From IMG/VR virus record IMGVR_UViG_3300015265_000025, positions 1 through 20,684 of that record: 20,684 nt of DNA, one strand, 5' to 3'. Position 1 is the stretch's first letter. Every line of letters begins with the position of its first letter. Source of the DNA: a virus. Below the pieces are notes generated by a model. It saw only the letters and a program-made list of their open reading frames with translations. It did no database searches and had not been told where the DNA came from. The position numbers were made by a program, and so were the translations under genes. Below, in pieces: positions 881-15,153 of this stretch.

Positions 881-964
881 GGACGCGCGTGCGGCATGAC
901 CGCCCGACAAAGGTGAGTTAGAAAAATGTTGCTCTGTTGGTGGCCTAATGGCACTATTGGGTTG

Positions 965-1071
965 GGCATGTGGTGTAATGGTTCGCACGTTCCGATAAAT
1001 CATAGTTACTGCTTACCATTGGTAAGTTTGTAATTTTATTGGAAAGGTCTCGGTTCGAATCCGGCATGCCA
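965..1071 (+). ncRNA. tRNA-like sequence with extended anticodon arm (pseudo-tRNA or structured RNA)
   Basis: The bases fold like a tRNA with an oversized anticodon arm. The acceptor stem is 965-970 with 1065-1070 (GGCATG/CATGCC) and base 1071 is A. A D-arm follows: stem 973-976/985-988 and an 8-base loop AATGGTTC containing the GG pair. The T-arm has a canonical 7-base loop TTCGAAT (1054-1060) on a 4-bp stem (1050-1053/1061-1064). In place of a 17-base anticodon arm there is a long hairpin, 990-1044: 10 bp (990-999/1035-1044), then 4 bp (1006-1009/1030-1033), then 6 bp (1012-1017/1021-1026) with loop ATT. Acceptor and T stems are each one pair short, and there is no readable anticodon. It could be a decayed tRNA with an insertion, an attachment-site remnant, or a functional structured RNA. 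Confidence 0.5.
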
Positions 1072-1100
1072 AAATAATTTCCATGAGATTATTTTGGCAT
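1066..1100. repeat. Perfect 13-bp inverted repeat
   Basis: ATGCCAAAATAAT (1066-1078) is repeated as its exact reverse complement at 1088-1100, around a 9-base spacer. The left arm begins in the 3' acceptor strand of the tRNA-like sequence. No T-run follows on the plus strand, so a classic terminator is unlikely. Possible roles are a protein binding site, a recombination or attachment site, or a processing hairpin at the 3' end of the RNA. It sits 70 bases before the HEPN gene. Confidence 0.85.
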
Positions 1101-1169
1101 CTGGATTCACGATAGTGTATTCATGATCATTCTAGTGAATGAAATATCTTCTTGCTGCGCAGGAGTTTA

Positions 1170-1967
1170 ATGTTGAATTCAGGTACTCCTGCCCCTGCTG
1201 CAACTCCTCCTGCAACTGCTGTTGCTACCCCCGAGTTTATTGCGAAAGTGAAAGGTTATCATGATGATAACTTTACTGAGGTTAACTCTGCACTTACGAA
1301 TATTGAGAAGCAGTTACGAAAAGCCTTATCGAAGGGTGATGACTCGGGCGAGCTTACATTCACCCGTCTTTATACTATGTTACTTGGAGTTTGGTGCGAA
1401 GCTAGACTTCATAAGCTTTTGTACGAAAAAGGGGTCTTCTCGGAAACAGAGAGGCAATTTGTATATGCAGTTACGCAGCTTAGCGAGCGCTGGCAGCGCG
1501 CATTAGAATTGGGCCTAAAGAAACATTTAGGGTTGCCGATGGATGAAGAGATCTCGAGGCGTACCGTAAAATTTTCGAAGCTTAATATTTATGAGGAAAT
1601 TCGAGAGTGGATTTCTGAACATTTCAGCCCGGCAATTACATTGCGGAATAAAATTGCGCACGGGCAGTGGGCTATGCCATTTCCTAACACTCAAGGTGAT
1701 TGGCTGAGTAGCAATAATTTCAGTATTTGCGGGTTGTCAAAAGCTGCCTTGAGTGCTGAGAATTTACTCACAACGTCAATAAAAATAGATCTTATCAAAG
1801 AAATTTCGGTGACTATCAATAATTTGGCAGTGGATAGTCTTATCTATAAAGTTGAAAACTTTGATGAGCGATATGCCGAGGTGTCGTCGATTATCGAAAA
1901 GTTGCCATTGGTTGATTATCGCGCTTTCAAACAAGGAATTAGGGGTACATTTAAAACCCCCGCTTGA
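1170..1967 (+). CDS. HEPN-domain protein, putative RNase (prophage cargo)
   Basis: A 265-residue protein. The ATG at 1170 is chosen because AGGAG (1161-1165) precedes it; an upstream in-frame TTG at 1152 has no such site. Residues 1-22 are a low-complexity Pro/Ala/Thr leader. The rest looks helical and carries RNKIAH at residues 159-164. This is the R-N-x3-H (RX4H) motif of HEPN domains, where Arg and His form the RNA-cleaving site of many toxin and abortive-infection RNases. The segment at about 65-90 (TRLYTMLLGVWCEARLHKLL) resembles an early HEPN helix. Local G+C is near 35% in the line counted (1261-1320), far below the neighbouring phage genes, so the gene was probably acquired separately. 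It points towards the methyltransferase gene (convergent). RNase activity is inferred from the motif only. Confidence 0.7.
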   Translation: MLNSGTPAPAATPPATAVATPEFIAKVKGYHDDNFTEVNSALTNIEKQLRKALSKGDDSGELTFTRLYTMLLGVWCEARLHKLLYEKGVFSETERQFVYAVTQLSERWQRALELGLKKHLGLPMDEEISRRTVKFSKLNIYEEIREWISEHFSPAITLRNKIAHGQWAMPFPNTQGDWLSSNNFSICGLSKAALSAENLLTTSIKIDLIKEISVTINNLAVDSLIYKVENFDERYAEVSSIIEKLPLVDYRAFKQGIRGTFKTPA

Positions 1968-2170: not shown

Positions 2171-3022
2171 TCATTCCGTCCGAATCAACCCCCGCCCAAC
2201 CCACTCCGCGACCTGCGTAACAACGGCGTTTCCGGCACCAAAAGCCTCTGCAAGGTTGGCCGCATCCAGTCCGAGGCAAAGCCCATCATCCTCAGCCGCT
2301 CGCTGCCGCTCAGCCATCTGATCCCATCCGTTCGGGTGAGCGACGAGAGTGGTACAGCCCATAGCGATTTGGGAAGGGGCTTTGTCTGCCAATAGAGTAT
2401 TGGCAGCCCAGGCATCCGCGGGGCGTGGCCACTGGATCGATTGAGACGCTGGAGGTATTGCGTCCACTGGCGCGGCGTCAGCCAGCAGCTCGATGGGGGG
2501 CATTCGTCGATAACCTGCGACCAGGAATACTCGGCGACGTTGCTGGGGGACTCCGAAATATTGAGCATTAAGCACTCGCCAAAATCCCACATACCCGCAG
2601 TCCGCAAGGGCCCTGATGACTGTTTCAAAGTCTTGGCTATCGTTGATAGCGAGCAAGTTAACGACGTTCTCAAGGACCACCCAGCGAGGTTGAATTTCTT
2701 TGAGGATTCGTATGACTTCCCAAAACAGGCCGCTGCGTTCGCCGCGTAGTCCGCGGGTGGCTTGGTTGCTGGGTCTGGCACCGGCAATGCTGATGTCTTG
2801 GCAGGGGAACCCGGCGGTGAGGACATCGACGGGGGAGAGGTTATGGGCGCCGCACTGGCGCACGTCTTCAAATTGGCGTGCATGGGGAAATCGATCGGCA
2901 AGCACAGCCCGGTTGACCGGGTTGAGTTCAACTTGCCAGGCGCTGCGGTAACCGGCGTTTTCAAATCCGACATCAAAGCCTCCTATGCCTGCGAACAGGC
3001 TGCCAATGGTGGGTTGCTGCAT
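2171..3022 (-). CDS. DNA cytosine-5 methyltransferase
   Basis: A 283-residue C5 methyltransferase that would transfer a methyl group from S-adenosylmethionine to cytosine in a specific DNA site. Motif I is GSLFAGIGGF (7-16), the catalytic PCQ of motif IV is at 73-75 with Cys74 as nucleophile, ENV of motif VI is at 118-120, QRRRVFLVA of motif VIII starts at 161, and GNAVV of motif X starts at 264. The segment between VIII and X is short for a target-recognition region, and motif IX is not visible in this frame; a good match lies one frame over (see findings). The start overlaps the end of com by 40 bases, as mom overlaps com in phage Mu. No partner endonuclease gene is present, so this is likely a solitary phage enzyme, perhaps protecting phage DNA from host restriction. 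Confidence 0.88.
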   Translation of the reverse strand: MQQPTIGSLFAGIGGFDVGFENAGYRSAWQVELNPVNRAVLADRFPHARQFEDVRQCGAHNLSPVDVLTAGFPCQDISIAGARPSNQATRGLRGERSGLFWEVIRILKEIQPRWVVLENVVNLLAINDSQDFETVIRALADCGYVGFWRVLNAQYFGVPQQRRRVFLVAGYRRMPPIELLADAAPVDAIPPASQSIQWPRPADAWAANTLLADKAPSQIAMGCTTLVAHPNGWDQMAERQRAAEDDGLCLGLDAANLAEAFGAGNAVVTQVAEWVGRGLIRTE

Positions 3023-14199: not shown

Positions 14200-14310
14200 T
14201 GAAAAACAAATCGGTGCGAAACCCTTAAAGTTATTGATAGTATTTTTACATCGCTAGATTCGTGCTTGGTTTTTGCTTGCAGCATTCATTTCAGTTGCCT
14301 TGGAGGCATC

Positions 14311-15153
14311 GTGGTCATCAAATTTGAAAATAGATTGATTGCTTTCTTGGATGTGCTTGGGTTTTCTGCTCGCTTAGAAACTGATGATATTGAAGAATTA
14401 CATCACAAGTATTCATCTTTCATCGACGAAGCCAAGGTAAAAACGTTCTATGAGGCGCAAGGCGATGGGGAAGGAAGAAAAAACTTTGATTTTTCGCAGT
14501 TTTTGTTTGATTCAATTGTTTTGGTGTCCTGCCCGATAGACGATGTTTATAACGTTAATAATTTTGTGGCCGCCGTTTCTTTTCTGCTTGAACTGGGGTT
14601 TAAAAACAAACTGCCATTGCGAGGAGCTATCAGTCGAGGTGATTTTTTATTCGATCCAGAAAGAAATATTTTTCTCAGTGAGCGTTTTCCGGAGCTAGCA
14701 AAATTCGAGCTGAAACAGGAGTGGGCAGGTTGCTCTGTCCTCCACCATGCTGAAGAAATTATACTTAGTTCATCAATGGGGGAAGGTGAAAAACTATTGG
14801 GAGATCAGAGAAGAGACCAGCCTTTTCATCGGTACACTGTACCTCTGAAGGACGGAGAAGAATTGAATTGCCTCGTATTGAATTATCTTTTTTTTCTAAC
14901 GGAGGCTGAGATAAATGAAGGTATTGATTTTTTGATTTCTGGAAAAAAAGAGGAGAATGTTAAGTATTTTGAGTTTCTTAAAAATCTTCCGCTACCACTC
15001 CAAGTATTGCAGCCTCAATTTTTTCCAGCAAAGTATGCGGCAATTATGACGACTCGAAGTGGGTTTCGTATTAAGTTCGCTGATGAGAATTTCAAGTCGT
15101 GTACGCCAGGACCAGGCAGCTTTCAATTCACAGCGGTGGGTCGGTGGAAATAG
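14311..15153 (+). CDS. Moron: putative class III nucleotidyl-cyclase-fold protein
   Basis: A 280-residue protein on the opposite strand from the surrounding late genes. The GTG at 14311 has GGAGG (14302-14306) upstream; an earlier TTG at 14266 does not. IAFLDVLGF (10-18) and FLFDSIVLV (64-72) resemble the two metal-binding strands of class III nucleotidyl cyclases, with Asp14 and Asp67 as metal ligands. LRGAISRGD (103-111) fits the following conserved strand. A later segment (EWAGCSVLHHAEEII) resembles the region after it in the widespread FIDILGF-type proteins of unknown role. G+C is about 38% in 14341-14400, well below the flanks, so it is an acquired moron. It lies between S and V, the slot of P2 orf30. 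A cyclic nucleotide signalling or anti-phage role is plausible; no effector gene is next to it. Confidence 0.62.
   Translation: MVIKFENRLIAFLDVLGFSARLETDDIEELHHKYSSFIDEAKVKTFYEAQGDGEGRKNFDFSQFLFDSIVLVSCPIDDVYNVNNFVAAVSFLLELGFKNKLPLRGAISRGDFLFDPERNIFLSERFPELAKFELKQEWAGCSVLHHAEEIILSSSMGEGEKLLGDQRRDQPFHRYTVPLKDGEELNCLVLNYLFFLTEAEINEGIDFLISGKKEENVKYFEFLKNLPLPLQVLQPQFFPAKYAAIMTTRSGFRIKFADENFKSCTPGPGSFQFTAVGRWK

Follow-up and report, generated by a model that had tools for sequence, protein, structure and literature searches.

A tRNA-like RNA lies directly upstream of a gene for a probable HEPN ribonuclease, on the same strand, in a P2-like phage and next to every distinct full-length relative of that gene that we found. 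We propose, with a confidence a little better than even, that the two form a module resembling type III toxin–antitoxin systems, in which the tRNA-mimic RNA would restrain the HEPN ribonuclease and a rival hairpin would set the balance between them. By analogy, the module looks like a kind of RNA-restrained HEPN toxin that has apparently not yet been described. The window, by which we mean the whole stretch of DNA that was analysed, is an IMG/VR virus record of 20,684 bases, and the features discussed below are collected in Table 1.

Table 1. Features of the RNA and of the HEPN gene in the window (positions are those of the window).
Feature	Positions	Strand	Remarks
Putative promoter	929-957	+	-35 box TTGCTC at 929-934, 17-nt spacer, -10 box CACTAT at 952-957
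Acceptor stem, 5' strand (GGCATG)	965-970	+	pairs with 1065-1070, 6 bp
D arm (GUGU-AAUGGUUC-GCAC)	973-988	+	stem 973-976/985-988, 4 bp; GG in the loop
Variable hairpin at the anticodon position	990-1044	+	55 nt; stems of 10, 5 and 7 bp
T arm (UCGG-UUCGAAU-CCGG)	1050-1064	+	stem 1050-1053/1061-1064, 4 bp
Acceptor stem, 3' strand (CATGCC)	1065-1070	+	common to both rival folds; CCA absent after it
Rival hairpin	1057-1108	+	1085-1108 pairs with the trailer and with the 3' strands of T-loop/T-stem and acceptor
Downstream strand of the rival hairpin (GGCATCTGGATTC)	1096-1108	+	1096-1100 antisense to the acceptor 3' strand, 1103-1108 to the T arm
Shine-Dalgarno of the HEPN gene (AGGAG)	1161-1165	+	before the ATG at 1170
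HEPN protein gene	1170-1967	+	265 aa; R-N-K-I-A-H motif at about 1644-1661

A sequence-only reading of the window had placed the RNA about 100 bases before a HEPN gene, which the position of the start codon bears out, and had raised the possibility of a decoy or antitoxin. Searches with protein queries, which drew relatives from IMG/VR, Pseudomonas genomes and plasmids, yielded distinct full-length HEPN proteins down to about 15% amino-acid identity, and a tRNA-like RNA lies upstream on the same strand in 22 of 22, a count that includes two near-duplicate pairs (L009/L016 and L018/L021). This pairing, which is directly observed, strengthens the suggested link between RNA and gene, and the idea of a decoy or antitoxin appears much strengthened by it. 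The relatives come from Pseudomonas, Raoultella, Rhodococcus and a cyanobacterium, and also from prophages and satellites; the pair is found in Pseudomonadota, Actinomycetota and Cyanobacteria, and plasmids of Rhodococcus and Kovacikia are among its carriers. The HEPN start codon follows the acceptor by 14–101 nt in the 21 loci measured. Two of the loci (L035 and L036) came to light once this arrangement had already been predicted, and both have the upstream RNA. A model of the RNA built from seven elements recovers 13 loci on which it was not trained at E <0.003 and a further one (L010) at 0.078. When 369 gammaproteobacterial genomes were searched with the RNA first, a small test for orphan copies, 15 loci were inspected, and these comprised one real element, already known and accompanied by a HEPN gene, and 14 ordinary tRNAs without one.

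The RNA is missing only next to fragmentary relatives (L027, L028 and L029). A 109-codon HEPN remnant without the mimic is found in the E. coli lambda-like phages 4A7, D2, 1W, 3W and 4C10, and the same remnant is carried by the E. coli plasmid pMY504-2 (L029). At about 2491-2917 in L028 (LR595864.1, 27.7 kb) and L029 it is 67% identical to the cyanobacterial protein, and sitABC genes adjoin it there.

In the window itself, the proposed cloverleaf is confirmed by the Rfam tRNA model, which matches positions 964-1072 with 28.3 bits, just below the gathering score of 29 (E 7.4e-6, computed for this record alone); ARAGORN run on the window does not call a tRNA at 965-1071. The GG of the D-loop and the UUCGAAU of the T-loop are both present as had been described. 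The 55-nt hairpin that occupies the site of an anticodon arm is likewise confirmed, although its stems, given earlier as 10, 4 and 6 bp, are computed to have the lengths listed in Table 1. That the pairing within it is extensive is supported by a folding energy, for the arm alone, of -19.3 kcal/mol compared to -6.6 in shuffled sequences (z -5.6, with none of 200 shuffles as stable); for the whole element the corresponding z is -3.8, again with 0 of 200. Within the long arm is a terminator-like stem at 1011-1027 (GCTTACC-ATT-GGTAAGT, then TTGTAATTTT), which possibly reflects an inserted element, or else a premature terminator, particular to this copy. A terminator scan of the window flags only this stem and 1149-1165. 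The inner 29 nt of the arm are absent from all other IMG/VR contigs, and searches of phage, plasmid and E. coli DNA with the window or an enterobacterial copy gave no match at the DNA level. The window copy might carry a defect of its own, but its HEPN frame and RNA stems are intact.

Across the family the body of the RNA is conserved and the arm at the anticodon position is free to vary. We compared 19 non-redundant elements, with segments assigned manually since MAFFT, applied to all 16 elements, aligns the D arm wrongly, and made formal pair counts on a well-aligned subset of seven rows (A7). The T-loop reads UUCRANU in 22 of 22 elements and the D-loop holds GG in 21 of the 22. Acceptor strands pair in 90 of 95 cells over the 19 elements (shuffled mean 46.7, 0 of 10000 as high) and T-stem strands in 92 of 95 (shuffled mean 65.5, 0 of 10000), while in the seven-row alignment 11 pairs of the cloverleaf and trailer hairpin have changed on both sides (shuffled mean 5.5, 0 of 500). 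The anticodon position, for its part, is occupied by GAAA and GCAA (GNRA) or UUCG tetraloops, by UCU, UAU or UUU triloops, by hairpins of 6–10 bp or by the 55 nt of the window; the arm ranges from about 10 to 55 nt and its loop has 3, 4, 6 or 10 nt, with the standard 5-bp stem and 7-nt anticodon loop seen in one locus only (L002). The long arm does not define the RNA; it is one extreme of a segment that varies freely in length and sequence. Even against the nearest relative (L001), whose HEPN protein is 80% identical and whose RNA body is nearly unchanged, the 55-nt arm of the window is unrelated to an arm of about 18 nt. No copy encodes CCA, and an A-rich trailer usually follows the acceptor. 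Some of the other copies reach the Rfam tRNA cut-off or receive an ARAGORN call with a nonsense anticodon, and others match over the T arm only. Judged from its sequence the RNA imitates a tRNA without being one; an ordinary suppressor or decoding tRNA is ruled out by the triloops and tetraloops and by the lack of CCA.

The sequence-only reading contained neither a second fold of this RNA nor a promoter at its first base. The second fold is a hairpin that reuses the 3' strands of the T arm and of the acceptor and is therefore incompatible with the cloverleaf. In the window it has a computed energy of -31.7 kcal/mol compared to -10.6 in shuffles (z -7.8). Both folds are directly supported in the family: the strand 3' of the acceptor is complementary to the acceptor 3' strand in 84 of 85 cells over 17 elements (shuffled mean 43.0, 0 of 10000) and in most elements to part of the T arm as well, giving a hairpin of about 20 bp. 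Twelve of its pairs have changed on both sides (0 of 500 shuffles), a level comparable to that of the cloverleaf, the two counts not being independent as the arms and the apical trailer stem are common to both folds. Computed on the whole RNA, the hairpin is more stable than the cloverleaf by 8–24 kcal/mol in 19 of the 22 elements. With so large a margin in silico, the RNA may adopt the cloverleaf only while it is being transcribed, once it is processed or when protein is present.

Where the two folds differ in quality, the weaker partner is the acceptor, and the rival strand pairs perfectly in every element that has a clear hairpin. The acceptor carries an A.C mismatch in four loci (L011, L014, L015 and L036), a U.U in one (L006) and a G.U in four others (L017, L018, L021 and L026). 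The hairpin is lacking in L007 and is weak or absent in L011 and L023. The L007 element, from Pseudomonas (minus strand, 2028-1950), has a full and strong acceptor, no rival hairpin and only 14 nt before the HEPN start, and provides a natural test of the need for the hairpin. The best Shine-Dalgarno of the HEPN gene falls inside the hairpin in 10 of 21 loci and, in the window, outside it. As a plain intrinsic terminator the hairpin was rejected, its T-rich tract lying within the stem and not 3' of it; some copies only, such as L013, are terminator-like.

In 13 of 19 elements, compared to a mean of 0.97 and a maximum of 5 in 300 shuffling trials, a pair of promoter-like boxes stops 6–9 nt short of the acceptor. 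This position is directly supported at the level of the family, and the predicted transcript therefore begins with the first base of the mimic, in the window at about 965. Taken alone the window promoter is weak: its score is the joint best within 60 nt but is surpassed within 90 nt, and a stricter promoter scan of the window gave no match. A transcript starting there should have no leader for RNase P and should continue into the HEPN gene.

The HEPN protein belongs to PHROG 12663 (E 3.3e-31 for the window protein, in a range of 3e-12 to 2e-73), a family annotated as of unknown function. Pfam, with seven members scanned, NCBIfam and PADLOC gave no family above threshold. An AlphaFold model of good quality (pLDDT 89, pTM 0.85) was compared to known structures with VIA-align, and the best eight matches are all HEPN proteins, chiefly HepT toxins, with Z of 6.2–7.6, values that alone are moderate for a helical protein and need the motif beside them. 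Plain Foldseek with the same model gave no confident match, and a profile search of PDB sequences no meaningful one. The protein has the R-polar-x3-H catalytic motif of the HEPN superfamily, in the form RNxxAHxQW, invariant across 20 aligned proteins; a member found later (L035) carries RNKITH. Since the structural matches combine with this invariant motif, we regard the HEPN assignment, an all-helical predicted fold and a motif taken together, as sound, and the protein is probably an RNA-cutting enzyme. The fold and the motif are, with the pairing of RNA and gene, the two rival folds and the promoter position described above, what the data bear on directly.

Several known systems resemble the module in part. 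The nearest one with experimental tests behind it is the HEPN toxin AbiF, whose upstream RNA neutralises it and lowers toxin expression as well (PMC12373285; PMC12737573). Like AbiF (Abi_2) with its AbiFr/RCd22 RNA, the module has a structured RNA directly before a HEPN RNase gene on the same strand, is prophage-borne and shows an R-x4-H motif; its RNA, however, combines a tRNA cloverleaf and a competing hairpin, whereas that of abiF consists of hairpin motifs. None of the seven HEPN members scanned matches Abi_2 in Pfam, and Rfam scans of the loci gave no match to the abiF RNA (RF03085), the matches there being mainly of tRNA or tmRNA type; identity with the abiF RNA or AbiF protein was ruled out by these absences. 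One HEPN member is weakly similar to an Abi PHROG (E 0.002). In type III systems (ToxIN, TenpIN, CptIN) an upstream RNA and a downstream RNase gene share one transcript. The likeness here is a conserved structured RNA preceding a predicted RNase gene in 22 of 22 loci; the putative toxin, in contrast, is HEPN and probably not of the ToxN fold (no ToxN chain appears among the structural matches listed, of which the best are HEPN proteins), and the RNA is a single tRNA mimic in place of pseudoknot repeats.

HepT toxins of the HepT-MntA pair (HEPN-MNT, type VII) are the best structural matches of the AlphaFold model, but in the loci inspected the RNA apparently adjoins the HEPN gene in place of an MNT antitoxin gene: we saw none in the window, among the large neighbours in four loci (Pfam) or in the annotations of two plasmids. 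With tRNA (RF00005) the mimic shares the cloverleaf, the D-loop GG, the T-loop UUCRANU and the elbow, and differs from it in lacking a conserved anticodon loop and CCA, in the promoter at base 1 and in the rival 3' hairpin. PHROG 12663 includes the HEPN protein, but its annotation does not mention an RNA partner. In the open literature, which excludes subscription papers and most preprints, we found no description of a tRNA-like partner of a HEPN gene, and there is a fair chance that a switch built on a substrate mimic is new in kind.

The minus-strand gene order of the ORF list (late-control D, U, tape measure, sheath and tube, fibre, baseplate, lysozyme and capsid genes to O) is, in our reading, that of a P2-like phage, whose host is probably Pseudomonas. 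Anti-phage systems are known to concentrate in P2-like phages and P4-like satellites (PMC9122126). The nearest relative lies on a satellite-like contig with an integrase, a Toprim protein and a C4 antisense RNA; L002 has a Mrr-type restriction gene and a C4 RNA as neighbours; L013 and L018 adjoin a tail protein and lysozyme gene; and genes for an AbiGi antitoxin and a restriction enzyme are neighbours of the Rhodococcus copy. These satellites, phage accessory sites and restriction or Abi neighbourhoods, together with the precedent of AbiF, count in favour of the proposed module.

Other observations concern the surroundings. On the Raoultella plasmid NZ_CP062917.1 (L009, 2361-11316) the module is part of a cluster, possibly a defence island, that also encodes a YfbU protein, a P-loop NTPase and a protein with a RelA/SpoT domain. 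In the window, a C5-cytosine DNA methylase gene (2171-3022, minus strand) adjoins the late-control D gene, with no restriction partner evident among the neighbouring ORFs, and a 295-aa ORF at 14266-15153, on the strand opposite to the flanking tail genes and without a Pfam match, is probably a further phage accessory gene.

The mechanism that we propose would run as follows. The mimic would be transcribed from its own first base, with the HEPN ribonuclease following on the same transcript. Having retained the elbow of a tRNA together with its acceptor and T stems, and given up the anticodon loop, it would bind and restrain the HEPN protein as an uncleavable look-alike of its tRNA substrate, much as type III and AbiF RNA antitoxins do. 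The 3' strand could displace the acceptor and T stems to form the long hairpin, with loss of the tRNA shape, and in about half of the loci this hairpin would cover the HEPN ribosome-binding site. Refolding would then determine how much antitoxin RNA is available relative to toxin and tie the synthesis of toxin to correctly folded antitoxin. Phage infection or loss of the element would upset the balance, and the free RNase would cut RNA, probably tRNA, so that growth stops. We infer the toxicity, the RNase activity, the trigger and, by analogy with AbiF, neutralisation, the tRNA target and switching. A more specific form of the proposal, to which we give somewhat less than an even chance, is that the module constitutes a new class of RNA–protein toxin–antitoxin or defence module, in which a true tRNA mimic neutralises a HEPN RNase by substrate mimicry and switches between antitoxin, as cloverleaf, and silencer of the toxin, as hairpin.

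Other readings can be set against this one. It is unlikely, in our judgement, that the RNA acts only in cis, as a bistable 5' UTR that controls HEPN expression with no free antitoxin RNA and might serve as a binding site for the HEPN protein, a modification enzyme or an enzyme of tRNA processing. Such a leader would account for the single predicted promoter at the first base, the short distance from acceptor to HEPN start, the conservation of both folds and the 10 loci with a Shine-Dalgarno inside the hairpin; however, a tRNA elbow and acceptor kept across phyla exceed the needs of a simple switch, and in about half of the loci, the window included, the Shine-Dalgarno lies outside. Somewhat less probable again is a sensor or bait, in which phage tRNA enzymes would cleave or modify the RNA and so release or activate an otherwise harmless HEPN effector. 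The tRNA mimicry and the phage and satellite setting are consistent with this, as is the evasion of tRNA-cutting defences by phage tRNAs (PMC11555353; PMC10264068), though the idea overlaps with the antitoxin model and differs from it solely in the trigger.

We consider it very improbable that the RNA is a structural cofactor or guide whose variable arm confers specificity, remotely like the crRNA of Cas13. The complete exchange of the arm between the window and its nearest relative, on a nearly identical body, would fit a guide, and one member has sub-threshold similarity to Cas13e and Abi families, but many arms are minimal triloops or tetraloops (GAAA, GCAA, UUCG) with nothing free to guide. 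Finally, a decayed phage tRNA with an insertion, beside the HEPN gene by accident, was offered as the simpler explanation of the window and would fit a score just under the tRNA threshold, the missing ARAGORN call and the lack of CCA, but it is scarcely credible and is refuted for the family by co-occurrence in 22 of 22 loci across phyla, long-range conservation with covariation of the stems and the conserved rival hairpin.

To our knowledge, few kinds of RNA antitoxin of HEPN toxins are known, and such RNAs are thought to be ancestral to Cas13 guide RNAs. If the antitoxin model is true, a tRNA-cutting toxin would be kept in check by a molecule that resembles the substrate it cuts, and a class of odd phage 'tRNAs' would be explained. 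The RNA of the module would also offer a compact natural bistable RNA, the two folds of which are testable by simple pairs of mutations.
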